64,000 nt of DNA from positions 3,286,001 through 3,350,000 of the forward strand of contig NZ_CP151635.1 in the NCBI RefSeq assembly GCF_038397735.1, in the 5' to 3' direction. This stretch comes from Microbacterium sp. LWH13-1.2. GTDB taxonomy: Bacteria > Actinomycetota > Actinomycetes > Actinomycetales > Microbacteriaceae. Made by a program: the position numbers and the translations under genes. Within the stretch, counting starts at the first letter, position 1. Each line of letters starts with the position of its first letter. Below the pieces are notes generated by a model. It saw only the letters and a list, made by a program, of their open reading frames with translations. It did not search any database and was not told where the DNA came from. Of this stretch, positions 4,377-58,548 are shown piece by piece.

Positions 4377-6329
4377 TCAGTCGCGGTGCGAGCGACGACG
4401 CGAGACGAGGAACAGCACTGCTCCGAGCACCAGCACGCCTCCGCCCACTGCGGCCCAGGTGAAGGTCTCCGGTCCCAGACCCGTGCCGGGCAGGCGTCCA
4501 CCGCCGGTGCTCGGCGGCGTCGAGGGTGTCGGCGTCGTGGTCGGCGGATCCGTCGGACTCACGACGATAGCGGCGAGCGTGAAGTCCTGGTCGACGAACG
4601 TCTCGCCCGCGGCCGTGACCTCGACCGTGAGCGTCGACGGGCCGACGATCGTGCTGCCCGCGGGCGCCGTGATCGTCAGCGTGTAGGTGCCGGGCGGCAG
4701 GCCGCCCAGGCCGTAAGCGCCGTCGGCATCCGTGATCAGCTGCTGGTCTCCCTCGTCGGTGGTGAGGGTGATGGTCACACCGGCGACCGGAGCGCCACCG
4801 TCGGTGCGCACGACACCCGAGAACCCACCGAGCCTGGCCAGCACGAAGTCGACGTCCGTCACGTCGGCCGTCGCGACGGTCTCACTCTGCGAGGTCGCCC
4901 CCGCGGCCACGTATCCGTCGGGCGTCGTGATGGTGATCTCGTAGTCACCCGAGGGCAGGCGCGGGAACGAGTAGCTGCCGTCAGCGGCGGTCACGGTCGT
5001 GAGTGTCGTTCCGCCGGGTCCGGTCGCGGTCACGGTGACGCCCGCGACTCCCGCTCCGTTCGCGCGCACAGCCCCGGTCAGGTCGGGGTTCTCGGCGAGC
5101 ACGAAGTCCGCGAGGGTGATCGGCACCTCGCTGCCCGGCGGGACCACGAGCGGCTCGGTCGGATCCGTGGTGCTGTATCCGGGCGGCGGGGTGACGACGA
5201 CGGTGTGAGGACCGACCGCGACCTCGTCGAAGAGGTAGGTGCCCTGGGCATCCGTCGTCGTGGTCTGTGCTCCGTCGACCGTCACGGTCGCGCCCGGCAC
5301 CGGGTTGCCGTCGTCGTCGACGACTCGTCCCGAGACGGCGACGGGGATGATGTCCCGCACGGTGAAGTCGGCCACGCCGTCGCTGGTCGTGAGGTCTACA
5401 GCCGCTGAGGTCGCCCCCTCGGGGATCATGCCCGCAGGGGCCGTCACCCGCACCGTGTATCCCGCCGTCGCGACGACGCCGGGGAACGAGTAGCTGCCGT
5501 CTGCGCCGCTGGTCGTGGTCGCGACGACGTCGCCGTTCGCGTCGGTCAGGGTGAGCGTCGCTCCCGGCTGCGGTGCCGCGGTGTCGTCGGTGACCACGCC
5601 CGTGATGTCGCGCGCGATCGACGCGAACCAGGTCTGGTACACGGGGAATCCGGATCGGCGTGTGAAGGAGAAGGTGAGGGAGGTGATCGGCACGTTCGGC
5701 TCGAACCATGCGGCCGCGCCGCTCGTGTCGAGAGCGGCCGCGTTTCCGGTGAGGGTCTGGGTCGTGGCATCCCAGGTCGGCACGTCCGCCGCGTCACCGG
5801 TGCAGGAGGGTTTGCCCGTGACTCCGGGCGCGCAGTAGTTGAAGCCGCCCTGGAATCCGAGTTCTGCCGCGGTGAGCGCCTGCCCGTTCGCGCCGACCGC
5901 CTGGATGCGCACCGAGTCGGCGTCGATGTCGCCGAGCACGAAGGTCCAGCCGGAGGCGGGAGTGGGGTTCGCGAACGAGTAGGTGGTCGTCGAAGGGCTG
6001 GCGGCGTTGTCGGCCTTCGGCCTCAGGTTCACGTACGACTGGTTGATGCTCGAGCCGTACTTCGCGCCGACCGGAGTCCCCTGCGCGAGCCAGTTGGTCG
6101 CGCCCGAGATGACACCGGCCTGGCCGGCGCGGGAGTCGCTCGTCATCGTGGCGGTGATGGCGGGCTGCGCCGCGACCTGCACGGTGGTCGTGTATGCCCC
6201 GCCCGTTCCGGTCAGAGGCTGCCAGGTCGCCCAGGCGGTCGTGGTGGCAGCCGCAGCCGGAATCGCACCGACGAGCGCCGCTGCGAGCACGATCGCTCCT
6301 GCAAGAAGTCCAACCCTGGCGACACGCAT
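4377..6329 (-). CDS. LPxTG-anchored surface adhesin with four Cna-B/carboxypeptidase-regulatory-like repeats
   Basis: 650 residues. A signal peptide (about 1-28, ending AIPAAAA) is followed by an N-terminal head of roughly 220 residues that resembles the beta-rich heads of actinobacterial surface proteins. Then come four tandem 80-residue beta-sandwich repeats (about 250-590), each opening with a G-x-V-x-x-x-G-x-P-x-x-G-[VA]-T-[VL] pattern and carrying an ADGSYSF/DAQGTYLF-type turn, as in SdrD-B, Cna-B and carboxypeptidase-regulatory-like domains. A Pro/Thr linker, LPGTG, a membrane helix and an SRRRSHRD tail form a cell-wall sorting signal. The motif is LPxTG rather than the LAxTG of the other anchored proteins here, so a different sortase may be used. 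It is convergent with the phosphoesterase, 19 bp away. The ligand is unknown. Confidence 0.85.
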   Translation of the reverse strand: MRVARVGLLAGAIVLAAALVGAIPAAAATTTAWATWQPLTGTGGAYTTTVQVAAQPAITATMTSDSRAGQAGVISGATNWLAQGTPVGAKYGSSINQSYVNLRPKADNAASPSTTTYSFANPTPASGWTFVLGDIDADSVRIQAVGANGQALTAAELGFQGGFNYCAPGVTGKPSCTGDAADVPTWDATTQTLTGNAAALDTSGAAAWFEPNVPITSLTFSFTRRSGFPVYQTWFASIARDITGVVTDDTAAPQPGATLTLTDANGDVVATTTSGADGSYSFPGVVATAGYTVRVTAPAGMIPEGATSAAVDLTTSDGVADFTVRDIIPVAVSGRVVDDDGNPVPGATVTVDGAQTTTTDAQGTYLFDEVAVGPHTVVVTPPPGYSTTDPTEPLVVPPGSEVPITLADFVLAENPDLTGAVRANGAGVAGVTVTATGPGGTTLTTVTAADGSYSFPRLPSGDYEITITTPDGYVAAGATSQSETVATADVTDVDFVLARLGGFSGVVRTDGGAPVAGVTITLTTDEGDQQLITDADGAYGLGGLPPGTYTLTITAPAGSTIVGPSTLTVEVTAAGETFVDQDFTLAAIVVSPTDPPTTTPTPSTPPSTGGGRLPGTGLGPETFTWAAVGGGVLVLGAVLFLVSRRRSHRD

Positions 6330-6389
6330 GCGGCCAGCGTATCGGCATATCGCAATGTCGGCGAGGGTCGGAGAACAGTCCCGGGGCGT

Positions 6390-6428
6390 GGAGAAGGGGC
6401 GGATGCTGCGCGCATCCGCCCCTTCTCC
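6390..6428 (-). terminator. Rho-independent-type hairpin
   Basis: Perfect 17-bp arms (6390-6406 and 6412-6428) with a 5-nt loop, just downstream of the luciferase-like gene on the minus strand. No long T tract follows, as is usual in high-GC actinobacteria. Confidence 0.7.
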
Positions 6429-6450
6429 ATGCCTCAGTTCGGCGTGGTTC

Positions 6451-7506
6451 TCAGACCGGGTCTCCCTGCACGGGCCCCTCGGTGTTCGGCTTCCAGCCGA
6501 GCGCCGGGGCGACGTGCGTCGCGAACGACTCGAGCACGTGCAGGTTGTACTCGGGGCCGAGCTGGTTCGGGATGGTCAGCAGCAGCGTGTCCGCCGACAT
6601 GACCGCCTCATCCGCGAGCAGCTGCTGGATCAGCACGTCGGGTTCGGCCGCGTAGGTCTTGCCGAACGTCGAGCGGTAGCCGTCGATGATGCCGATCTGG
6701 TCGGCGTTCTCCTCGCTGCGCAGGCCGAAGTACGCCCTGTCCATGTCGGACACCAGCGGGAAGACACTGCGGCTGACCGAGACGCGGGGCGTACCGGTGT
6801 GACCCGCCTCTTTGTAGGCGCTGCGGAACAGGTCGATCTGCTCGCGCTGCAGCTGGTGGAACGGCACACCGGTCGCCTCGGTGAGAAGCGTCGAGCTCAT
6901 CATGTTGAGCCCCTTGCGTCCGGTCTCCTCGGCCGTGGCTCGAGAACCAGAACCCCACCAGATGTGGTCGCGCAGAGTCGGCGACTGCGGTTCGATCGCG
7001 AGGTAGCGCCCTGCACCGACCATGCGGGGGTCGCCGGGAGCGAGGCCCTCTCCGTCGATGGCGCGCAGGAAGAGGTCGAACTTCTCGCGGGCGATGACGC
7101 TGCCTCGCTCCGGGTCCTCCTCGTCGTGGAAGCCGAAGGTCTCGTAGCCGCGCAGTGCCGTCTCGGGTGAACCACGGCTCACTCCGAGCGCGATCCGCCC
7201 GTCGGCGATCAGGTCGAGAGCCGCCGCCTCTTCGGCGAACTGGAACGGGTTCTCGTACCGCATGTCGATGACGCCGGTGCCGACCTCGATGCGCTCGGTG
7301 CGTGCGGCCATGGCCGACAGCAGCGGCATCGGAGACGCGGCCTGCCGTGCCCAGTGGTGCACGCGCACGGATGCTCCGTTGACCCCGATCTCGTCGGCGC
7401 CCTCCGCGATCTCGATGGTCTGCTTCAGCATGTCTCCCGCAGTGCGGGTCGCTGAACTGGGCACGTCGGCGTAGTGCCCGAACGAGAGGAATCCGAAAGC
7501 CTTCAT
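6451..7506 (-). CDS. LLM-class flavin-dependent oxidoreductase (luciferase-like)
   Basis: 351 residues with the bacterial-luciferase (TIM-barrel) layout: N-terminal strand MKAFGFLSFGHY, then a region with VRVHHWARQ, RTERIEVGTGVIDM and ADGRIALGVSRGS, which are typical conserved blocks of the family. These enzymes use reduced FMN or F420 to oxidise small organic substrates. Nothing in the sequence identifies the substrate or separates the two cofactors. It lies 40 bp downstream of the methyltransferase on the same strand, so co-transcription is possible, and a strong hairpin ends the unit. Confidence 0.85.
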   Translation of the reverse strand: MKAFGFLSFGHYADVPSSATRTAGDMLKQTIEIAEGADEIGVNGASVRVHHWARQAASPMPLLSAMAARTERIEVGTGVIDMRYENPFQFAEEAAALDLIADGRIALGVSRGSPETALRGYETFGFHDEEDPERGSVIAREKFDLFLRAIDGEGLAPGDPRMVGAGRYLAIEPQSPTLRDHIWWGSGSRATAEETGRKGLNMMSSTLLTEATGVPFHQLQREQIDLFRSAYKEAGHTGTPRVSVSRSVFPLVSDMDRAYFGLRSEENADQIGIIDGYRSTFGKTYAAEPDVLIQQLLADEAVMSADTLLLTIPNQLGPEYNLHVLESFATHVAPALGWKPNTEGPVQGDPV

Positions 7507-7546
7507 GGTGTATTCGAACGCATATATACGGACGGGTATTCCCGCA

Positions 7547-9109
7547 TCACTGCTCCGACACCAGCAGACCGTCGAGCACGAGCTGCCGGATGCGCGGCTC
7601 GAGGTCCGCCCATAGGTCGACGAGCGGCACCTCGAACAGGTCGGCGAGCGCCCCCACGATCTGCATGACGGTCAGATATCCATCGCAGGCGCCGACGAAC
7701 GCGGCGACCGCGGGGTCGACCGTGATCGTGCGTGCGAAGCCCCCGCCCTGGCGGAGCTCGATGATGCTGGGGTCGTCGTTACCCGGAAGCAGGTGTCGAG
7801 CCTCGGTGACGTCCGGCGCCGTGAAGAGCGTCGAGGGCAGGCCATCGACGAGCAGGTCGTGAGCGACGAGCCCCGAGCGCAGCGCCCCGCCGACGTTCGA
7901 CACGGGCTGCGACAGACGTTCGAGACGACGCAGCGGCGCGGTCTGCCCGGGCGTCGCAGGCCGCCGCACCAGGATGTAGCCGAACCCGACAGCGGTGACG
8001 CCGCGTGCGGCGAAGTCGTCGAGCCACGCGGTGAGCAAGGGGGTGAAGGCGGCGTCGCGCGGGGTGGTGCCGCCGTCGCGGATCCAGAGCTCCGCGTAGC
8101 CGAGCGGAGACAGCTCCTCGCGCTGGATGACCCACAGGTCGAGGTCGCCGGGCACCCAGGACGAGAGCCGGTCGAGGCCGACCCGGCCGGTGAGTTCGCG
8201 CTGGCCCCCTCGCGACTCCCAGTTGCCGAGCAGCTGGGCGACCCCGCCGGGGGTGAGGAAAGACGGAGCCGCGCGCAGGAACTGCTCGACGAGCGCGTCT
8301 CCCACGAGGCCGCCGTCGCGGTACTCGTACTCGGGAACGCCCTCGGCCCGAGGGGTTATCACGAACGGAGGATTCGACACGATCAGGTCGAAGGCCTCTC
8401 CTTCGACCGGCTCGAACATACTGCCCAGTCGGAACTCGATGTTCGAGACGCCGTTCAGCTGAGCGTTCAGCTCGGCGTACGCGAGCGCCCGTGCCGAGAT
8501 GTCCGTGGCGACGACCGCACCGGCATGGCGGGCGACGAGGAGCGCCTGGATGCCGCATCCGGTGCCGAGATCGAGGGCTCGCTCGACCTCGATCGGCATG
8601 ATGATCTCGGCGAGGGTGCGCGACGCCCCGCCCACTCCGAGCACGTGATCTGCGGGGAGCGCACCGTCGAGCGCCACCTCGTCGAGGTCGCTCGCGATCC
8701 ACCATTCGCCGATGCCGTCGGCGTCGACGAACGACTGCGGCCGAAGCAGCGCGGCGGGAATGACCGCATCTCCGTCGATGCGCGCAAGGCCAAGAGCGAC
8801 CAGGCCATCGACGCCGAGCCGCGGCAGCGCGGCGGCCACCCGAGGCGCAGGCTGGGGCATTCCGAGCACCAGAAGACGCCCCAGCGTCGCGAGCACACCG
8901 TCGTCACCGGCGATCGCCCGCAGGATCGGCTCGCGCATCCCTCGCGCCAGCGCGTCGTCCTCTTCCTCTCCCCACAGGCGACGCAACGGCTCCGAACGAA
9001 GGTCGGCGGCATCGAGATCTGCGGCGAGCGCAGCGCTGCGAAGCGGATCGGGAACGGGGGTGAGGGTGTCGGACACGGCCGTCACTCTACGCGTCTTCAG
9101 GGTTCTCAT
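7547..9109 (-). CDS. Class I SAM-dependent methyltransferase (NPPF type)
   Basis: Up to 520 residues. The central Rossmann methyltransferase contains ALDLGTGCGIQALLVARHA (SAM-binding motif I) and IVSNPPFVITPR; an NPPF motif is typical of enzymes that methylate planar amide or exocyclic amino groups in proteins (PrmC type) or nucleic acids. N- and C-terminal extensions of about 150 and 200 residues have no family I can name with confidence, although the architecture is common next to murJ-linked genes in Micrococcales. The start is uncertain: ATG at 9109, or GTG codons at 9085 and 9076, would all keep the domain, and the last gives an N terminus VSDTLTPVP. It is divergent from the DUF6049 gene. 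Confidence 0.78.
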   Translation of the reverse strand: MRTLKTRRVTAVSDTLTPVPDPLRSAALAADLDAADLRSEPLRRLWGEEEDDALARGMREPILRAIAGDDGVLATLGRLLVLGMPQPAPRVAAALPRLGVDGLVALGLARIDGDAVIPAALLRPQSFVDADGIGEWWIASDLDEVALDGALPADHVLGVGGASRTLAEIIMPIEVERALDLGTGCGIQALLVARHAGAVVATDISARALAYAELNAQLNGVSNIEFRLGSMFEPVEGEAFDLIVSNPPFVITPRAEGVPEYEYRDGGLVGDALVEQFLRAAPSFLTPGGVAQLLGNWESRGGQRELTGRVGLDRLSSWVPGDLDLWVIQREELSPLGYAELWIRDGGTTPRDAAFTPLLTAWLDDFAARGVTAVGFGYILVRRPATPGQTAPLRRLERLSQPVSNVGGALRSGLVAHDLLVDGLPSTLFTAPDVTEARHLLPGNDDPSIIELRQGGGFARTITVDPAVAAFVGACDGYLTVMQIVGALADLFEVPLVDLWADLEPRIRQLVLDGLLVSEQ

Positions 9110-27915: not shown

Positions 27916-28656
27916 ATGCCCGAGAATCCCCCTGCCCGCTCTCGCCGAGCGCGGGTGCTCACCGCCGGTGCCGCTCTTGCGGCCTCGACCCTCCTCGCGT
28001 TCGGTGTGGCATCGCCTGCCTCCGCCGTCGTCATTCCGGTCGCCTACGACACAGTCGCACTGACGGCTGCTCCGACCTCGGTGTCCGTCGGCGACACCGT
28101 CACGGTCACCGCGGTCTTCACCGGGCTCGTCGATGCCTATGCCTATGAACTCGACATCGCCTACGACCCGGATCTGCTCGCGTTCGTCGCCGACAGCCAG
28201 ATCCTGCCCTCGGGAGGATTCGGATCGGCCACCGACACCGGGGCGCAGATCGCGGTCGCCGCCACGCGTCTCGGCACCTCGCCCGGCCTCGCCGGAACAC
28301 AGACTCTCGTGACCCTCCGCTTCACCGCGCTCGAGCCGGGAGACGCCTCGCTCGCGATCGCATCCGGGCGCATCGTGGATTCGAACGCCCAGCCGACCAC
28401 GGTCGATCCCAACGCCGCCGGCACGTCGGCGATCGTCGAGATCTCGGGCGACGACGGGTCGGAGCCTGGTTCCGGTGACGACGGTTCCGCCGCGGCCGAC
28501 CCCGGAACCGGCGCAGGATCGGGCTCGGGCTCCACCCCCGACGGCTCGCTCGCCGTCACGGGTGCCGACGCCGCTCCGTGGCTGATCCTCGGAGCAGCGG
28601 CGATCGCCGCCATCGCCGCGGGGACGGTCATCGCAGTGCGACGGAGGACTCGATGA
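27916..28656 (+). CDS. Sortase-anchored cohesin-domain surface protein
   Basis: 246 residues. A signal peptide with an Arg-rich N region (residues 1 to about 39, ending PASA) precedes one cohesin-like beta-sandwich (about 45-175). The visible pattern, VSVGDTVTVTAVFTG then YAYELDIAYDPDLLAFV and TLVTLRFTALEPGDASL, ending GRIVDSNAQP, is that of type I/II cohesins, the receptors for dockerin modules. A Gly/Asp/Ser linker follows, then LAVTG, a membrane helix and RRRTR, a class E-type sorting signal. The next gene encodes a secreted amidase with a dockerin-like segment, so this protein is inferred to hold that enzyme on the wall. Binding has not been shown, and the cohesin assignment rests on pattern only. 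Confidence 0.82.
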   Translation: MPENPPARSRRARVLTAGAALAASTLLAFGVASPASAVVIPVAYDTVALTAAPTSVSVGDTVTVTAVFTGLVDAYAYELDIAYDPDLLAFVADSQILPSGGFGSATDTGAQIAVAATRLGTSPGLAGTQTLVTLRFTALEPGDASLAIASGRIVDSNAQPTTVDPNAAGTSAIVEISGDDGSEPGSGDDGSAAADPGTGAGSGSGSTPDGSLAVTGADAAPWLILGAAAIAAIAAGTVIAVRRRTR

Positions 28657-28706
28657 TCGGGCGCGACATTCGAGCACAGCTGGCGAACAACAGGAGAGAC
28701 AAGACC

Positions 28707-30521
28707 GTGAAGAAGACCACACTCCGGATCGTCGCTGCCGTCTCGGTCGCAGGTGCTGCGATCGTCACGGGAAGCCTGGCGAGCGGGTCCGCGCTCGCGG
28801 CGCCGATTCCGGCGTCCGTCAGTCTGCCGCCGTACTACAGCGACCTCGACGTCACGGACGATGCGATGGTCACGACCGCGGATCTGACGATCGCCGCCGA
28901 TGCACTGGGACTCACGAGCGCTTCTCCGGACTGGTCACGCGTGTCGATCCTCGACACCGACGCCGACGGAGAGCTCACGATCCTCGATCTCGCCGACCTC
29001 TCGAAGCGGATCATCTACGACGACGGTCCTTTCGAACTCGTCGAAGCCTCGGTGATCGACATGCAGGCGGCGATGAATGCCGGGGTCGCGACGTCGCAGA
29101 GCATCACTCAGGAGTACCTCGACCGGATCGCGGCCTACGACCGGGCTGTCGTTCCCGGGGGGAGTCGCGCTCTCAACTCGATCATCACGGTGAATCAGCA
29201 GGCGCTCGCCAGCGCAGCGGCAGCTGACGAGATCCGAGCGTCGGAGGGGATGACCAGCATGCTCCTGGGCGTGCCGATCGCGCTGAAGGACAACTACGGC
29301 ACGGTCGATATGGTGACCACCGGCGGATGCGCCTGCTGGAATGAGAACCAGACGGCCACGGACGCCTCGATGGTGACCGGCCTGCGCAACGACGGTGCGG
29401 TGATCCTCGCGAAGGCCAGCCTCGACGAGTTCGCGTACGGATTCGTCTCCGAGTTCTCGTCGTTCCAGGATCCGGGTGCGACGTCCCTCGTGGCGAGTCC
29501 GTACGACACCACGAGGACGGCCGGCGGCTCGAGCGGCGGCACGGGCGCCGCCATCTCGGCGAACCTCGCGGCGATCGGCTTCGGCACCGACACCGGTGGA
29601 TCGATCCGCGTTCCCTCGTCGTACAACCAGCTCGTGGGCGTCCGTCCCACGGTGGGGCTGGCCAGTCGAGACGGCATCATCCCGCTGGCCCTGTCGCAGG
29701 ACACCGGCGGACCGATGGCCCGATCGGTCATCGACGCAGCCGTCGCGCTCGACGCGGTGGTCGGCATAGACGACGCCGACCCGGTCACCTCCCGACAGCA
29801 GGGTCTGGTGCCCGAGTCGTACACCTCGTTCCTCGACCCGAATGCTCTGCAGGGAGCGCGCATCGGCTACATCACGTCGATGGTCGGCAGCAACACCGGA
29901 ACCGTCCGACTCTTCTCCGAGGCGACGGCTGCGCTGACCGCTCAGGGTGCGACCGTGGTGACCGTGACGCCTCCGGCGGAGTTCGCCGCAGTGCTGAATG
30001 AGGGATCCGGATCGACGAACGAGTTCCTGCACGACCTCGACGAGTACATCGCCACGCACCTCGGGCCCGCGGTCGAGGCGCGGACGCTGACCGACATCCT
30101 CGCCACGAACAGCTTCGTGACCTCGCGGCGATCGATCTATGAGGCGCGCAACGCCGTCACCGATGCGACGTACGAGGCATGGGCCGGCGAGACCGGCTCG
30201 CACACCGTGCAGATCGCAGCGGGCAAGACCCTTGTGACGCAGATGATGGAGGATCTCGACCTCGACGCGATCATCTACCCGAGTACGAACGCATACGGAA
30301 CCCAGGGCACCAACATGAGGTTGAGCCCGAACACCGGAATGCCGTCCGTCACCGTTCCGATGGGTCAGACGATCGCGGGCGAGAGCGTTCCCGGCAGCGG
30401 AGTGAACCTGGAGTTCCTCGGACGCGACTTCGACGAGGGCACGCTGCTCGGTCTGGCCTACGCATTCGAGCAGACGACGGATGCTCGCACGTCGCCGTCG
30501 CTCTACGGGCCGCTTCCGTGA
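28707..30521 (+). CDS. Secreted amidase-signature enzyme with N-terminal dockerin-like module
   Basis: 604 residues from GTG 28707, chosen because AGGAGAG lies 8 bp upstream and it gives a clean signal peptide (KKTTLRIVAAVSVAG to SALAAP). An ATG at 28653, overlapping the upstream stop by 4 bp, is the alternative. Residues about 43-103 hold two EF-hand-like repeats, LDVTDDAMVTTADLTIAADALG (degenerate) and LDTDADGELTILDLADLSKRI, matching a type I dockerin. The amidase-signature domain follows with the Ser-cisSer-Lys triad in context: IALKDNYG (Lys194), GGSSGG (Ser275/276) and DTGGSIR (Ser299). It hydrolyses an amide (substrate unknown) outside the cell. The neighbour encodes an anchored cohesin protein. 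A terminator closes the pair. Confidence 0.85.
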   Translation: MKKTTLRIVAAVSVAGAAIVTGSLASGSALAAPIPASVSLPPYYSDLDVTDDAMVTTADLTIAADALGLTSASPDWSRVSILDTDADGELTILDLADLSKRIIYDDGPFELVEASVIDMQAAMNAGVATSQSITQEYLDRIAAYDRAVVPGGSRALNSIITVNQQALASAAAADEIRASEGMTSMLLGVPIALKDNYGTVDMVTTGGCACWNENQTATDASMVTGLRNDGAVILAKASLDEFAYGFVSEFSSFQDPGATSLVASPYDTTRTAGGSSGGTGAAISANLAAIGFGTDTGGSIRVPSSYNQLVGVRPTVGLASRDGIIPLALSQDTGGPMARSVIDAAVALDAVVGIDDADPVTSRQQGLVPESYTSFLDPNALQGARIGYITSMVGSNTGTVRLFSEATAALTAQGATVVTVTPPAEFAAVLNEGSGSTNEFLHDLDEYIATHLGPAVEARTLTDILATNSFVTSRRSIYEARNAVTDATYEAWAGETGSHTVQIAAGKTLVTQMMEDLDLDAIIYPSTNAYGTQGTNMRLSPNTGMPSVTVPMGQTIAGESVPGSGVNLEFLGRDFDEGTLLGLAYAFEQTTDARTSPSLYGPLP

Positions 30522-30526
30522 GCCAA

Positions 30527-30565
30527 GGCCGGCGACTGTTCGACGAACTCGGACAGTCGCCGGCC
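30527..30565 (+). terminator. Terminator after amidase gene
   Basis: 13-bp arms GGCCGGCGACTGT (30527-30539) and ACAGTCGCCGGCC (30553-30565), perfect, before recF. Confidence 0.82.
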
Positions 30566-30617
30566 CGCCCGGGCTCGGGCGGAGGGAGATGTCAGACCCC
30601 GAAGGTAGGCTGACAGC

Positions 30618-46325: not shown

Positions 46326-49300
46326 ATGAGGGTCCCCAGCCCCAGGAACGCACGATCCGCCCGCCGCTCGTGGGCGGCAGCCGGCGTCGCCGCCACGGTC
46401 GGCCTGGCCATGCTGACGCCGATCTCGGCAACGGCAGCGGCAGGCGAGACGACGTTCGCGTCGTCGTTCGAAGCCGCTGACACGGCTCCCGCTCTCGTGG
46501 GTACGGGCGAGGCCCTCAACGTCACCGGAAGCCGCTTCACGCCGGGCAGCGTGCTCGGCAACGTGACCGCCGTGACCGCCTCGGCACAGAACACGCCCAA
46601 CGAGGCCGCCGCATTCGTCGCAGACGGCAACTCGTCGTCGAAGTGGCTGGCGTTCACGAACACGGCATGGGTGCAGTACCAGCTCGCAGCGCCCCAGCCG
46701 ATGACGAGCTACACGCTCACCTCGGGCAACGACGAGCCCGACCGCGACCCGAAGGACTTCCGGGTGCAGGGGTCGACGAACGGCACCGACTGGGTGACCG
46801 TCGACGAGCGCAGCGGAGAGCTGTTCTCCGGCCGCGGCGAGACGCGCACCTTCACACTTGCGACTCCGAGCACCGAGTACCTCTACTACCGTCTCGACGT
46901 GCTCGCCACGAAGACCCCGAGCAAGAACATCGTGCAGCTCGCGGGGTGGGAACCGATCGCCGTGGCCGGTGCGACGCCCGAGGCGTCCGACCTGATGCTG
47001 CAGATCGGCAACGGCCCCACGAGCTCCGACACCGCCAAGACCGGTGTGGGCTTCACCGGCACCAAGGCGCTGCAGTACGTCGGCCGGCACCTCGATGCCG
47101 GACCCGCATCGTCGACGAGCGTGCTCTACGACGGCGTCGACATCGCGGTCGAGGGCGACAGCGAGCTGTCGTACCTCGTCTTTCCCGTGCTCGACGGCGA
47201 GCAGACCTACGCCGCCACCTTCGTCGCTGTCGATCTCACATTCGACGACGGCACCCGGCTCTCGACCAGCGGCGCTGTCGACTCGTACGGCTACGGGGCG
47301 AATGCACGGCAGCAGGGCCAGGCCAACGTGCTCTGGCCGAATCAGTGGAACAAGGTCACCGTCGATCTCGGTCAGTTCGCGGGGCGCACCGTCGATGACA
47401 TCGTCTTCAGCTACGACCACCCGGGCACCGATGTGAAGGGCGTCGAGGTTCCCACGGGCGCCACGGCCTTCAGCGGCTGGCTCGACGACGTCGCGATCGG
47501 CGCGGCAGAGCAGCGCGACGACACCGACGGACTCGTGTCGTACGTCGACACGCGCCGAGGCACCAACTCGACCGGTGGTTTCTCGCGCGGCAACAACCTT
47601 CCCGCGACCGCCTGGCCGAACGGCTTCAACTTCATCACCCCGATGACCAACGCCGACAACGTCGGGACGATCTACCAGTACCAGCGGGCGAACAACGCGC
47701 AGAACCTGCCTGCCCTCAACGGCATCGGATTCTCGCACCAGCCGAGCATCTGGATGGGAGACCGCAACCAGATCGCGGTGCTGCCCGCGGCGAACGGCAA
47801 CCCCACCTCGTCTCTCAACGATCGCAGGCTCACGTTCCACCACGAGAACGAGACCGCTCGGCCGGACATCTACTCGGTCGACTTCGACAACGGCATCCGG
47901 ACCGACGTCACGGCAACCGACCACGGCGCGATCTACCGCTTCGAGTTCACCGGCGACACGAGCTCGATCCTCATCGATCAGCTCGTGAACTCGTCGAAGC
48001 TGACGATCAGCGGCGACACGGTGTCGGGGTGGGTCGACGGCGGATCCGGATGGCCCGGACGCACGCGCATGTTCGTGTACGGCACGTTCGACAGGGAGCC
48101 GGCCACGGCCGGAGCGACCACCCAGGGCGACCGCAACGGCACAGCTCGCTACGCGGCCTTCGACACAACGACCGACCGCACCGTAGAGCTTCGGCTCTCG
48201 TCGTCGTTCATCTCGCAGGACCAGGCGGAGAAGAACCACGAGTTCGAGCTCGCCGGAGTCTCGTTCGACCAGGCGCACGCCGCCGTGCGTGACGCATGGA
48301 ACGACCGCCTCGGTGTGGTGCACGACGTGGTCGGCGCGAGCGACACCCAGCTCGTCACCCTGTACTCGAGCCTCTACCGCCTGAACCTGTACCCGAACTC
48401 GCAGTTCGAGAACACCGGAACAGAGGCGAACCCGGTCTACAAGTACGCGAGCCCCGTATCGGCGACGACCGGAGCCGCATCCGACACCCACACGAACGCC
48501 AAGATCGTCGACGGCAAGATCTACGTCAACAACGGCTTCTGGGACACCTACCGCACGGCGTGGCCGCTCTATTCGCTGCTGTACCCCGACGTCACGGAAG
48601 AACTGGTCGACGGTTTCGTGCAGCAGTATCGCGACGGCGGCTGGGTCGCGCGGTGGTCGTCTCCCGGCTATGCCGATCTGATGACGGGAACGAGTTCCGA
48701 CGTCGCCTTCGCCGACGCGTACCTCGCGGGTGCGCTCACGACCGACACGGCACTCGAGGCGTACGACGCCGCGGTGAAGAACGCCACGGTGCTCCCGGCA
48801 TCCAATGCCGTGGGACGAAAGGGCCTCGCGCAGTCGATCTTCCTCGGGTACACCGAGGAGACCACGCACGAGAGTGCATCGTGGGGTCTCGAGGGGTACA
48901 TCAACGACTTCGGCATCGCCGAGATGGCCAAGGCGCTCTCCGAAGACCCGAACACGCCTGCAGACCGTGTCGAGCAGCTGAAGGAGGAGGCGACGTACTT
49001 CGAGGCCCGTGCCGAGCACTACGTCGAGATGTACAACCCCGAGGCAGGTACCTTCACCTCGCGCAACGCCGACGGCTCCTGGACGTCGGGTGCGGACTTC
49101 GACAAGAAGGCTTGGGGCGGTGCCTTCACCGAGGCGAGCGCCTGGACCTTCGGCTTCCACGCCCCGCACGACGTCGACGGACTCGCCGCCCTCTACGGAG
49201 GACGCCAGGAGCTCGTCGACGTGATGCACGAGTTCCTCACCGTGCGTGAGAAGGCCGACTACTCCGGCATCCACGAGGCGCGCGAGGCGCGAGACGTGCG

Positions 49301-52300
49301 GCTCGGGATGCTGGGGATGTCGAACCAGATCGCCCACCACATCCCCTACGTGCTCGCCGAAGCCGGCGACCCGTCGGGGGCGCAGGAGCTGATCCGCGAC
49401 ATCCAGGACCGACTCTTCGTCGGATCGGACATCGGACAGGGGTACCCGGGTGACGAGGACAACGGGGAGTTCTCGGCCTGGTACGTGTTCTCGGCACTCG
49501 GCTTCTACCCGCTGGAGGTGGGCTCGGGCGACTACACGATCGGCACCCCGCTGTTCGACAGCGCGACGCTGTCGCTCGGCGACTCCGACCTCGTGATCAA
49601 CGCCGCGGGCGCATCGTCCGGCAAGGACTACGTGGCAGGCGTCAGCATCAACGGCACGCCCATCGACCAGACGACCTTCGACGGAGATCTGCTGCGCTCG
49701 GGCGGCACGCTCGACTTCACGATGAGCGCAGACCCCTCGGCGTGGGGCGCGAAGGCCCTCGACGAGGACCTCGAGATCCCGACCACCCTGGTCGATGCGA
49801 CCAAGCCGGGCCGTGGCACCCTCGCAGCATCCGACGGCACTCCCGTCGGATCGCTCGTCGACGACAACATGAACTCGACCGTGACATTCGCAGGCGACAC
49901 CGCCGAGCTCGTCTGGACCTCGCAGTCGGGGCCCGTCTCGATCGGCCAGTACACGCTGACGAGTGCGGCGAAGGGCAGCGCGCCGTCGAGCTGGACGCTC
50001 TCCGGCTCGATCGACGGCACCACCTGGACCGAGCTCGACAGTCGAGAGGGCGAGACCTTCACGTGGGACTCGCAGACCCGGCCGTTCACGGCGAAGGGCA
50101 CAGGCGGCTACACGAGCGTCAAGCTGACGGCGAAGACCGGCGGCCCCGCACTGTCGCTGTCGGAGGTCGAGCTGTTCGCCTCCGCGTCCTCGGCGGACGG
50201 ACTCTCCGTCGCGGCGGGCGCTCCGCAGCGGGTGGCGGTGGACACCGAGTTCACCGGCTCGCTCGCGACGGTCGTCGGCACGGAGACGGATGCATCGGGC
50301 TACGACGTCACGGTCGACTACGGCGACGGCGTGGAGGTCACGGACGTGGCGTTGACCCGCGATGCGCTGGGCGGATGGAAGGTGAGCGCTCCGCACACCT
50401 TCACCGCTCCCGGCACCTACTCGGCCGTGGTGACGGTGCGCGACTCGAACGGCGCGATGGCGCAGGCCACAGCCACCGTCACGGCCTTCCGCGACGAGAC
50501 GTTCGTCGGAGCATTCAACAACGTCTGCATCGGCGATCTGGGAGTCACCGCGGCGAACTGCGATTCGCAGGGCCACGGGTACTTCCGCGACAAGATCAAC
50601 GCCGACGGCTTCGTTCAGGGCGAGACCCTCACCGTGCCGGGCACGACGCTGACGTACGACCTCCCGGCCGTGCCGGCGGGCGCACCGGACAACATCACGG
50701 GCGAAGGACAGGACGTGCGTGTGTCGCTCGGCTCCGGTGCGACGCAGATCGCGTTCGTCGGCACCGCGACCGAGAGCAACCGAGACTCCGAGGCGACGCT
50801 GCACTTCAGCGACGGCACAGAGCAGAAGGTGATGATCAGCCTGGGCGACTGGGTCGGAGCATCCGGAAACCCCTACAAGGGCAACACCGTGCTCACGGTC
50901 TCCGAAGGGCGACTCTCGGGAACCGGCGCCGAGTCGAGCGTGAAGAACACGGCGATCTACGCGACGGCCCCGATCACCCTCGCGGTGGACGGAGCCGGTG
51001 CACCGAAGATTGTCGAATCGATCACGATGCCGAAGGAGCCGGGACAGCTCAACGACGGCCGCGTGCACATCTTCGCGCTCGCCTCCGACGGCGACCGCTC
51101 GGCGACCGCCGACCTCACGGTCACCGCGGGCACGGTGGGCGGTCAGATCACCGGTGAGGAGTTCGACGCCGATCTGGCGACGATCGCCGGTGGCGCCGGT
51201 GAGACGTCGGCGATCGTCAACTGGGGCGACGGATCACCCGTCGCGCATGTCGAGGTCGTCGACGGCGCGATCACCGGAACGCACACCTATGCCAAGGCCG
51301 GCACCTACACGGTCACGATCACGGCGGACGACGGTGTGAAGTCCGCCGACGCGCAGCTGCAGATCGCGGTGGTCGATCCCGAGCCCGAGTACGCACCTGA
51401 GATCCAGGCACCCGCTCAGGCGGAACCCGGAGAGACGGTCACGATCACGGGCACCGGCTTCGCGGCAGGAGAGAACGTCGCGATCCGCATCGACGCCGAG
51501 GAACCCGTGATCGTGGAGGCCGGGCAGGATGGCGAGATCAGCGGCGACATCGTCGTGCCGTCGGATGCCGTCGACGGGGATCACCCCGTGGTCGCCCTCG
51601 GTGACGTGTCGAAGGTAGAGGCGAGGGCATCGCTCCTGGTCGTCGGCGATCCGTCTGCTCCGAAGAACACCTCGGTGACGCTGGCCTCGGGGTCGGACGA
51701 CCCGGTCGCGGGCGAATCGATCCCGTTGATCGCCATCGTGAAGCCCTCGGCTGCCGCCGGCACGGTCGAGTTCCTCGAAGGCGACCAGATCGTCGGATCG
51801 GCGAGCGTCTCGGCCGGCACCGCCACGGCCGATGTCACCATCGCGACCTCGGGCGAGCACACCCTCGTCGCACGGTTCGTCCCCTCCGACCCCGGCGCCT
51901 TCCGCCCGTCGGAGTCGGCGCCCCTCACGATCGACGTGCGGAGCACGCCGGTGCTCGACGCCGAGCTCGTGCTCGGAGCGAGCAGCGTGGTCCAGGGCGG
52001 AAGCCTCGAGATCACGGGTCGCGGGTTCGGTGCGGGCGAGGTCGTCACGATCACGCTCCACTCCGAGCCGATCCGACTGGGTCAGGCGACCGCCGACGGA
52101 ACGGGCGCCTTCCGCATCCAGGTGACGGTGCCCGCGAACGCGGAGGTGGGTGCCCACACGCTCATCGCCGTCGGCGCAGCATCCGATCTGAGTGCGCAAG
52201 CGCCCCTCACGGTCACGGCTGCGGCTTCCGCAGGCGGCGGACTCGCCGGCACCGGAGGCGTCGTCCCGGTCGCCGCGATCGTGGTGCTCCTCCTGCTCCT

Positions 52301-52349
52301 CGCCGCAGGTGGCGTGCTGGTGATGCGCCGACAGCGCGTGGAGGCGTAG
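46326..52349 (+). CDS. Very large sortase-anchored GH92 alpha-mannosidase-type enzyme
   Basis: 2007 residues from ATG 46326 with GAGGAG upstream. Order: signal peptide (1 to about 38); F5/8C (discoidin/CBM32-like) domain about 70-212; a beta-domain to about 395; GH92 catalytic region about 400-1140, with GFWDTYRTAWPLYSLLYPD (about 736) and GDEDNGEFSAWYVFSALGFYPL (about 1042), hallmarks of the Ca-dependent exo-alpha-mannosidases; second F5/8C-like domain about 1163-1288; PKD-like domains about 1295-1388 and 1601-1682 flanking a beta-sandwich of about 200 residues; three Ig-like modules; then LAGTG (about 1973), membrane helix and RRQR. Such enzymes trim alpha-mannose from yeast mannan or N-glycans. 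Anchoring through class E sortase is inferred; linkage specificity is not visible. Confidence 0.93.
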   Translation: MRVPSPRNARSARRSWAAAGVAATVGLAMLTPISATAAAGETTFASSFEAADTAPALVGTGEALNVTGSRFTPGSVLGNVTAVTASAQNTPNEAAAFVADGNSSSKWLAFTNTAWVQYQLAAPQPMTSYTLTSGNDEPDRDPKDFRVQGSTNGTDWVTVDERSGELFSGRGETRTFTLATPSTEYLYYRLDVLATKTPSKNIVQLAGWEPIAVAGATPEASDLMLQIGNGPTSSDTAKTGVGFTGTKALQYVGRHLDAGPASSTSVLYDGVDIAVEGDSELSYLVFPVLDGEQTYAATFVAVDLTFDDGTRLSTSGAVDSYGYGANARQQGQANVLWPNQWNKVTVDLGQFAGRTVDDIVFSYDHPGTDVKGVEVPTGATAFSGWLDDVAIGAAEQRDDTDGLVSYVDTRRGTNSTGGFSRGNNLPATAWPNGFNFITPMTNADNVGTIYQYQRANNAQNLPALNGIGFSHQPSIWMGDRNQIAVLPAANGNPTSSLNDRRLTFHHENETARPDIYSVDFDNGIRTDVTATDHGAIYRFEFTGDTSSILIDQLVNSSKLTISGDTVSGWVDGGSGWPGRTRMFVYGTFDREPATAGATTQGDRNGTARYAAFDTTTDRTVELRLSSSFISQDQAEKNHEFELAGVSFDQAHAAVRDAWNDRLGVVHDVVGASDTQLVTLYSSLYRLNLYPNSQFENTGTEANPVYKYASPVSATTGAASDTHTNAKIVDGKIYVNNGFWDTYRTAWPLYSLLYPDVTEELVDGFVQQYRDGGWVARWSSPGYADLMTGTSSDVAFADAYLAGALTTDTALEAYDAAVKNATVLPASNAVGRKGLAQSIFLGYTEETTHESASWGLEGYINDFGIAEMAKALSEDPNTPADRVEQLKEEATYFEARAEHYVEMYNPEAGTFTSRNADGSWTSGADFDKKAWGGAFTEASAWTFGFHAPHDVDGLAALYGGRQELVDVMHEFLTVREKADYSGIHEAREARDVRLGMLGMSNQIAHHIPYVLAEAGDPSGAQELIRDIQDRLFVGSDIGQGYPGDEDNGEFSAWYVFSALGFYPLEVGSGDYTIGTPLFDSATLSLGDSDLVINAAGASSGKDYVAGVSINGTPIDQTTFDGDLLRSGGTLDFTMSADPSAWGAKALDEDLEIPTTLVDATKPGRGTLAASDGTPVGSLVDDNMNSTVTFAGDTAELVWTSQSGPVSIGQYTLTSAAKGSAPSSWTLSGSIDGTTWTELDSREGETFTWDSQTRPFTAKGTGGYTSVKLTAKTGGPALSLSEVELFASASSADGLSVAAGAPQRVAVDTEFTGSLATVVGTETDASGYDVTVDYGDGVEVTDVALTRDALGGWKVSAPHTFTAPGTYSAVVTVRDSNGAMAQATATVTAFRDETFVGAFNNVCIGDLGVTAANCDSQGHGYFRDKINADGFVQGETLTVPGTTLTYDLPAVPAGAPDNITGEGQDVRVSLGSGATQIAFVGTATESNRDSEATLHFSDGTEQKVMISLGDWVGASGNPYKGNTVLTVSEGRLSGTGAESSVKNTAIYATAPITLAVDGAGAPKIVESITMPKEPGQLNDGRVHIFALASDGDRSATADLTVTAGTVGGQITGEEFDADLATIAGGAGETSAIVNWGDGSPVAHVEVVDGAITGTHTYAKAGTYTVTITADDGVKSADAQLQIAVVDPEPEYAPEIQAPAQAEPGETVTITGTGFAAGENVAIRIDAEEPVIVEAGQDGEISGDIVVPSDAVDGDHPVVALGDVSKVEARASLLVVGDPSAPKNTSVTLASGSDDPVAGESIPLIAIVKPSAAAGTVEFLEGDQIVGSASVSAGTATADVTIATSGEHTLVARFVPSDPGAFRPSESAPLTIDVRSTPVLDAELVLGASSVVQGGSLEITGRGFGAGEVVTITLHSEPIRLGQATADGTGAFRIQVTVPANAEVGAHTLIAVGAASDLSAQAPLTVTAAASAGGGLAGTGGVVPVAAIVVLLLLLAAGGVLVMRRQRVEA

Positions 52350-57753: not shown

Positions 57754-58548
57754 ATGACTGCATCCGTCGTCTCGGGGGAGCGACGTGCACACCGCCGCCG
57801 CCCTCGATCGCGCGCCACTTTCACGAGCGTGCTCGGTGAGCTCCTGCTCACCGCAGGTGTGCTTGTGCTCCTGTTCGTCGCGTGGCAGATGTGGATCGGC
57901 GACATCATCATCAGCGCTCAGAAGAACGACGAGGGCGCAGCGGTCTCGCAGGAGTGGGCGAGCGGACCCACGCCCGAGCTGCCCCCCGTCGTCGAGACCG
58001 ACGACGGAACGACGATCTACGAGCCGGTGATCCCGGCGCCTCCGGCCGACACCCAGCTGCTGGGCCAGATGCACGTGCCTCGATTCGGATCCGAGTACAA
58101 CGTCGGGATCTACGGCGGCACCAGCCGTGCCCGTACGCTCGACAAGCTCGGCATCGGCGTCTACACGGACTCGAAGATGCCCGGCGAGGTCGGCAACTTC
58201 GCCATGGCCGGCCACCGCACCACCTGGGGAAAGCCCTTCAACCAGCTCGACAAGCTGCAGGTCGGCGACGCGATCGTCGTCGAGACACCCGACGGGTGGT
58301 TCACCTACCGCTTCCGCACCCTCGAGTATGTCAAGCCGACCCAGACCGAGGTCCTCCTCGACGTCCCGCAGATGCCCGGAGTCGAGACCGGCGAGAAGTA
58401 CATCACGCTGACCGCCTGCTCCCCGCTCTACTCGCTTGCCGAGCGCATCGTCGCCTACGGGGTGTACGAGAGCTTCCAGCCCCGTGCCGAGGGTCCGCCC
58501 GCGGCCCTCACCGACCCGCCCCCTCCGCCGGCTGCGCCGTCGATCTAG
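57754..58548 (+). CDS. srtE: Class E sortase
   Basis: 264 residues. A basic N terminus and one signal-anchor helix (about 30-52) precede the beta-barrel. The catalytic His is in NFAMAGHRTTWGKPF and the Cys in ITLTACSPLYSLAERI; the Arg corresponds to AERIV. Class E enzymes cut LAxTG signals, as in three proteins here (1-2490, 27916-28656, 46326-52349). A Pro-rich tail ends the protein. It begins a unit with the small membrane protein and pabA. Confidence 0.94.
   Translation: MTASVVSGERRAHRRRPRSRATFTSVLGELLLTAGVLVLLFVAWQMWIGDIIISAQKNDEGAAVSQEWASGPTPELPPVVETDDGTTIYEPVIPAPPADTQLLGQMHVPRFGSEYNVGIYGGTSRARTLDKLGIGVYTDSKMPGEVGNFAMAGHRTTWGKPFNQLDKLQVGDAIVVETPDGWFTYRFRTLEYVKPTQTEVLLDVPQMPGVETGEKYITLTACSPLYSLAERIVAYGVYESFQPRAEGPPAALTDPPPPPAAPSI

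Follow-up and report, generated by a model that had tools for sequence, protein, structure and literature searches.

What does a cohesin gene do beside a secreted amidase gene in the chromosome of an actinobacterium, when cohesin–dockerin pairs are familiar chiefly from glycoside hydrolase complexes, which they hold together? We considered this question for a window of 64,000 nucleotides from Microbacterium sp. LWH13-1.2 (bases 3286001-3350000 of the 3.77 Mb genome), in which the two genes lie, as the initial annotation had placed them, between dnaN (upstream) and recF (downstream), both read from the sequence (Table 1). Our principal reading, to which we assign a probability of about 0.83, is that the genes make up a surface-display cassette of one cohesin and one dockerin that would keep the amidase on the cell surface. 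Specifically, the cohesin protein would be secreted and then fixed to the cell wall at its LAVTG motif, with a class E sortase as the most likely agent; the amidase would be secreted separately; and the N-terminal dockerin of the amidase would dock on the wall-held cohesin, so that the enzyme would be retained at the surface. The physical binding of the two partners and its calcium dependence, like the anchoring, are parts of this model that we infer.

Table 1 Features of the cohesin and dockerin-amidase locus and the candidate sortase gene (positions are those of the window).
Feature	Position	Strand	Details
Cohesin gene	27916..28656	+	246 aa: signal peptide, one cohesin domain, linker, LAVTG, membrane helix, basic tail
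Dockerin-amidase gene	28653..30521	+	604 aa from GTG 28707 or 622 aa from ATG 28653; from sequence and PF01425 (E 6.9e-78)
Stretch with dockerin-type module	28782..29033	+	two calcium-loop motifs, D66-D77 and D101-D112 (622-aa form)
Amidase-signature catalytic domain	29103..30305	+	residues 151-551 of the 622-aa form; PF01425 and invariant motifs
17-bp hairpin, candidate terminator without T-run	30527..30565	+	fold z -4.97; terminator scan gave nothing
Class E sortase gene, candidate for LAVTG processing	57829..58548	+	NF033747, 227.9 bits (cut-off 160)

The two reading frames are closely arranged: the first possible amidase start overlaps the cohesin stop codon as ATGA, an overlap also present at several other loci (below), and the GTG start is preceded by AGGAG at 28692-28696. 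Both amidase forms occur in the protein database (P0035 and P0002), and either start may be the one in use; a protein of Microbacterium sp. Leaf320 is 98% identical to the window amidase. A terminator of its own had also been ascribed to the pair, and a perfect 17-bp hairpin does follow just 3' of the amidase stop (fold of 30510-30617, -62.6 kcal/mol, z -4.97), but it lacks a T-run, for which reason a consensus terminator scan of the plus strand gave nothing at the amidase 3' end. Elsewhere in the window, a frame of 2007 aa on the plus strand (46326-52349) begins in a signal-like manner.

The first gene product matched the Pfam cohesin family well above its cut-off (PF00963, residues 52-158, E 3.2e-10, 40.8 bits versus 24.1), and its predicted model has the cohesin beta-sandwich fold. 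LAVTG, the hydrophobic stretch and an RRRTR tail were read straight from the protein sequence, and the earlier description of a signal peptide, one cohesin and LAVTG is thereby confirmed; the NCBIfam LAVTG anchor model scored below its cut-off on this protein (20.4 versus 27). In relatives, NCBI names it 'cohesin domain-containing protein'. LAXTG signals are described as targets of class E sortases in the available part of PMC5148588. Two sortases were matched in the genome, and one of them, class E over its cut-off, sits in the window itself. A signal peptide, LAXTG, a membrane helix, a basic tail and a genomic class E sortase together give the protein the features of a class E sortase-anchored protein, and a covalent link to the wall, made most probably by such an enzyme, would be the predicted outcome. 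In Microbacterium, LAXTG predominates (19 of the 21 aligned cohesin proteins, the exceptions being L041, with LTATG, and L048, with none), but it is not the sole anchor form. L048, L106, L107, L109 and L132 form a divergent subgroup, with cohesin proteins of 363-474 aa and more distant amidases.

The reading of the amidase N terminus as a dockerin held for the ortholog set and the fold, but less well for the window copy alone. This copy matched Dockerin_1 (PF00404) weakly (E 0.24, 12 bits versus a cut-off of 22.9 bits, which is an operating threshold), although the match runs through residues 48-102 of the 604-aa form and takes in positions 3-56 of the 57 in the profile; because it falls under the curated cut-off, we call the module 'dockerin-type'. 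Across the orthologs, window included, Dockerin_1 matched 21 of 21 at E<=1 (best 7.7e-8), and homologous copies in Paenibacillus exceeded the cut-off (26.4 to 31.1 bits). The module model (helices 32-40, 51-57 and 67-80; loops from 23 and 58) has two calcium loops, a helix after each and no entering helix before the first, as dockerins do, and the calcium-loop acids are 90-100% conserved across 62 loci. All 27 VIA-align matches to this model were dockerins, as were the best 20 of 49 Foldseek matches.

The second gene encodes, as first described, a secreted enzyme of the amidase signature family (PF01425), in which KDN, GGSSGGTG and DTGGS occur without variation in all 21 aligned amidases and correspond to the Ser-Ser-Lys catalytic motifs of that family. 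The nearest solved chain to the catalytic part is peptide amidase (PDB 1m21, E 5.5e-71, residues 1-480 of the 486 queried; also 1m22), a likeness that concerns the catalytic domain alone, the dockerin stretch lying outside the query. Amide groups of peptides (the peptide C-terminal amide) are tentatively put forward as the likeliest substrate, a point on which we are considerably less confident than on the display of the enzyme.

We then assessed how often the two genes occur together, in genome searches that scored only first-look candidates, up to a cap, and so had limited sensitivity, and in which Pfam missed some real cohesins. Among 198 Microbacterium genomes, 24 had a cohesin at E<=0.01 (Pfam), and in 23, our own included, a dockerin-amidase adjoins the cohesin gene or shares its frame; the remaining match (L049, in G109) was set aside by eye as contamination, since the repeat protein that contains it does not resemble its supposed host. 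When the dockerin region served as the query instead, 36 loci came up in 35 of the 198 genomes, with an adjacent cohesin at 32 (9 of them missed by Pfam at E<=0.01), the other four being a locus at a contig edge (L108), one without a cohesin and with a partial dockerin (L110), and two without a dockerin (L111 and L112, in G083 and G127), weak matches that were dropped as the dockerin was unrecognisable. The complete pair was present in 31 of the 198. At the family level, a cohesin was detected at E<=0.001 in 21 of 398 genomes (13 of 85 genera), and for the 20 besides our own the dockerin-amidase was adjacent or in one frame in 19 and the locus was at a contig edge in 1; at the class level, the dockerin region matched in 9 of 394 genomes, 6 newly counted and all 6 with the pair; and in a draw of 296 genomes from the phylum, our own alone matched at E<=1e-6. 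The total of 57 paired loci (32 + 19 + 6) corresponds to 57 of the 58 readable actinobacterial loci, side by side or in one frame, with L108 and L119 (contig edge) outside this count. With adjacency this consistent, we reject the idea that the two domains are unrelated and lie together by chance.

The genes flanking the pair vary, but the pair itself persists. Six of the 57 loci have the amidase first (L113 and L140-L144), and 56 of them (L134 being too short) fell into 34 groups by flanking genes, only 4 of the 56 sharing the dnaN-recF setting; the pair is not special to that locus, and the tie suggested by the initial annotation is not upheld. A wider contig scan returned at least 80 loci, of which at least 11 were actinobacterial dockerin-amidase loci (L145-L155) from, among others, Cellulosimicrobium, Curtobacterium, Microbacterium halotolerans, Frigoribacterium sp. 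JB110, Agreia sp. Leaf283, Oerskovia merdavium and Nocardioides sp. Root1257. A cohesin adjoins in 10 of L145-L155, the remaining one, L145, beginning at the end of a contig. The gene order of Nocardioides Root1257 is inverted, and its cohesin protein lacks LAXTG and shows an Ig-like Big_3_5 match under the family cut-off. In Curtobacterium aurantiacum (L146, 3845-4654, plus strand), the cohesin was missed by Pfam and found by the family profile (E 8.5e-28); Pfam-based cohesin counts are too low.

Some loci depart from the two-gene form. Three of the 57 are in one frame (L037, L043 and L126), a state that may stem from sequencing error. In L043 (G087, 5298-7565, minus strand), the cohesin is joined to the dockerin-amidase without LAXTG or a membrane helix, as a natural fusion or a deletion; L126 (G531, 5294-7897, plus strand), from a single-contig 2.7 Mb genome, is an 868-aa frame running from cohesin through LSATG, a membrane helix and a second signal-like stretch to dockerin and amidase; and in L037 (G152) the anchor region is read through out of phase, and the dockerin is shorter than in the other loci. 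The sole readable exception to pairing, L110 (G137), has no cohesin within the 10.5 kb covered and retains dockerin profile positions 37-95 of 95; it is a damaged cassette, its cohesin lost and its dockerin missing the beginning. In both damaged cassettes, L110 and L037, both partners are affected.

The pairing extends beyond the Actinomycetota, with a different anchor. In Paenibacillus sp. SY21-1, an enzyme combines cohesin, dockerin and amidase, each above its Pfam cut-off, and the next gene encodes a cohesin with three SLH domains. Among 51 genomes drawn from this genus, the dockerin region was matched in 12, and a cohesin partner with three SLH domains adjoins in all 10 full-length matches, SY21-1 included; the matches in G1000 and G1013 were dropped, as they covered the dockerin part only, in other large proteins with no amidase seen. 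A Pfam scan of four of these Paenibacillus enzymes placed dockerin and amidase over the cut-off in all four and a cohesin too in three. In L156, L249 and L252, the amidase chain has its own cohesin and dockerin and lies beside a cohesin-SLH protein; since such an amidase carries a cohesin itself, enzymes could chain on the surface anchor. Four further Paenibacillus amidases (L158-L161) have an SLH domain at the N terminus, and two Bacillus amidases (L157 and L162) have neither dockerin nor SLH that we could see. That enzymes of the same kind are fixed in different ways suggests that the role of the dockerin is anchoring. With 22 cohesin matches, several in frames of >1000 aa, SY21-1 (G964) is not a one-cohesin genome and possibly holds a larger, undescribed cohesin–dockerin system. 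The pair, initially described as a system of one actinobacterium, is indeed present there but also occurs in at least two actinobacterial families and in Paenibacillus.

Our own genome, by comparison, fits the original picture of one scaffold with one cohesin: it has a single cohesin and two weak Dockerin_1 matches, the window copy and a 19-position fragment in a repetitive surface protein, which we do not count as a second dockerin. A cellulosome would combine a multi-cohesin scaffoldin with many dockerin-bearing glycoside hydrolases; here there are one cohesin and one full dockerin, on an amidase, and by these tests the system is not a cellulosome. The cohesin protein had no match in plasmids, the dockerin region had none in plasmids and phages, and the phage families yielded a single amidase-type family, its function unknown, and nothing that matched the cohesin protein; a plasmid or phage origin is not supported by these searches. 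Cohesin and dockerin distances co-varied after removal of the amidase distance (partial r 0.325 over 62 loci, with 0 of 2000 permutations as high; L037, Paenibacillus L156, and L149, L150, L152 and L155, which repeat G084, G141, G026 and G336, were left out, as was L048 from alignment A3), a result that counts as support only, because shared ancestry is not fully removed.

To place the pair among known systems, we compared both predicted models with solved structures. Matches to the cohesin model include 3ul4 (Clostridium thermocellum OlpA) and 2zf9 (Ruminococcus flavefaciens ScaE), single-cohesin cellulosome surface anchors that receive a dockerin, much as the window cohesin protein would. 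The Paenibacillus partner, with its cohesin and SLH domains, resembles OlpA most. Those anchors serve cellulosomes with many dockerin proteins, whereas the window genome has one cohesin and one full dockerin; the window protein would act as an anchoring scaffold with a single cohesin for a single client. The closest folds for both halves are non-cellulosomal: independently, both models put parts of non-cellulosomal C. perfringens proteins first, with NagJ-type cohesins among the top three for the cohesin model and the NagH dockerin leading for the dockerin module model (complex 2ozn; cohesins 2jh2, 2w1n and 2vo8). The view that such pairs are mainly cellulosomal needs qualifying, as NagJ-NagH is one example of a pair already known outside cellulosomes (PDB 2ozn title; available part of PMC12997984). 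In NagJ-NagH, cohesin and dockerin sit on glycoside hydrolases (according to the same part of PMC12997984), whereas here one cohesin is on an enzyme-free wall-anchor protein, its presumed client being the amidase of the adjacent gene. The Limousia mucinolysome anchor cSca5 is similarly a non-cellulosomal cohesin protein with a sortase signal (LPxTG), but its predicted cargo is multi-cohesin scaffolds together with glycoside hydrolases, not one enzyme at a LAXTG protein (PMC12997984, in the part available). The proposal of a minimal, non-cellulosomal enzyme-docking system is supported, both segments by profile, fold and orthologs, and their pairing across genera, settings and both gene orders.

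Among the papers listed in literature searches, none dealt with this pair by title or start of abstract. We do not claim its absence from print, because the Peer et al. 2009 survey of non-cellulosomal cohesins and dockerins may include actinobacterial members. No cohesins or dockerins are reported for the Cellulomonas genomes in the available part of PMC3544764, and the string 'actino' is absent from the main text of PMC11557425 as far as available.

Other readings of the locus were weighed against surface display. The N-terminal module might be a calcium domain of the EF-hand kind, serving to fold or regulate the amidase, with the cohesin an adhesion domain and the two proteins neighbours without mutual binding; the sub-threshold Dockerin_1 score of the window copy, the calmodulins that top the PDB sequence matches of the region's profile, and weak EF-hand matches in 3 to 6 of 21 members all lean this way. 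However, the best EF-hand match (0.0034) compares poorly with Dockerin_1, found in every member, the structural matches described above favour dockerins, and the adjacency of a cohesin in 57 of 58 loci would be left unexplained, making this reading highly improbable. Even less probable, in our judgement, is that the proteins bind but that the cohesin protein acts as a secretion or folding partner, or as an inhibitor of the enzyme, rather than in wall display: the genes are coupled through the ATGA overlap, and LAXTG is missing from 2 of 21 aligned cohesin proteins and from inverted-order cohesin proteins of a second family, but the pairing is kept across a change of anchor from LAXTG to SLH, and SLH is borne directly by some amidases of Paenibacillus.

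On the separate matter of the substrate, a more specific idea is that amides are removed from wall peptides of the cell itself or of a neighbour, not from free peptides. Retention at the surface via different anchors would fit a substrate near the wall, and the nearest solved relative is a peptide amidase, but no shared wall-synthesis neighbours were found among the 34 settings of 56 loci, and a pair that is complete in only 31 of 198 genus genomes is ill-suited to a core wall function; we regard this idea as unlikely.

Together, the results favour surface display of the amidase and, with somewhat better than even odds, a broader view in which this is a stand-alone two-gene cassette, independent of cellulosomes and sugar degradation, that has travelled whole from one chromosomal site to another and between Actinomycetota and Paenibacillus, with clip and amidase kept while the anchor is exchanged (sortase signal, SLH repeats or Ig-like tail) and the Paenibacillus enzymes potentially chaining on theirs. 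If so, the one-to-one pair would represent a cohesin–dockerin clip used by an actinobacterial amidase simply as a detachable wall anchor, and the orphan 'cohesin domain-containing' proteins of Microbacterium would gain a partner. The loci would also supply small pairs of natural origin that could serve surface display, in which a constant clip amid varied anchors would make the anchoring idea directly testable.
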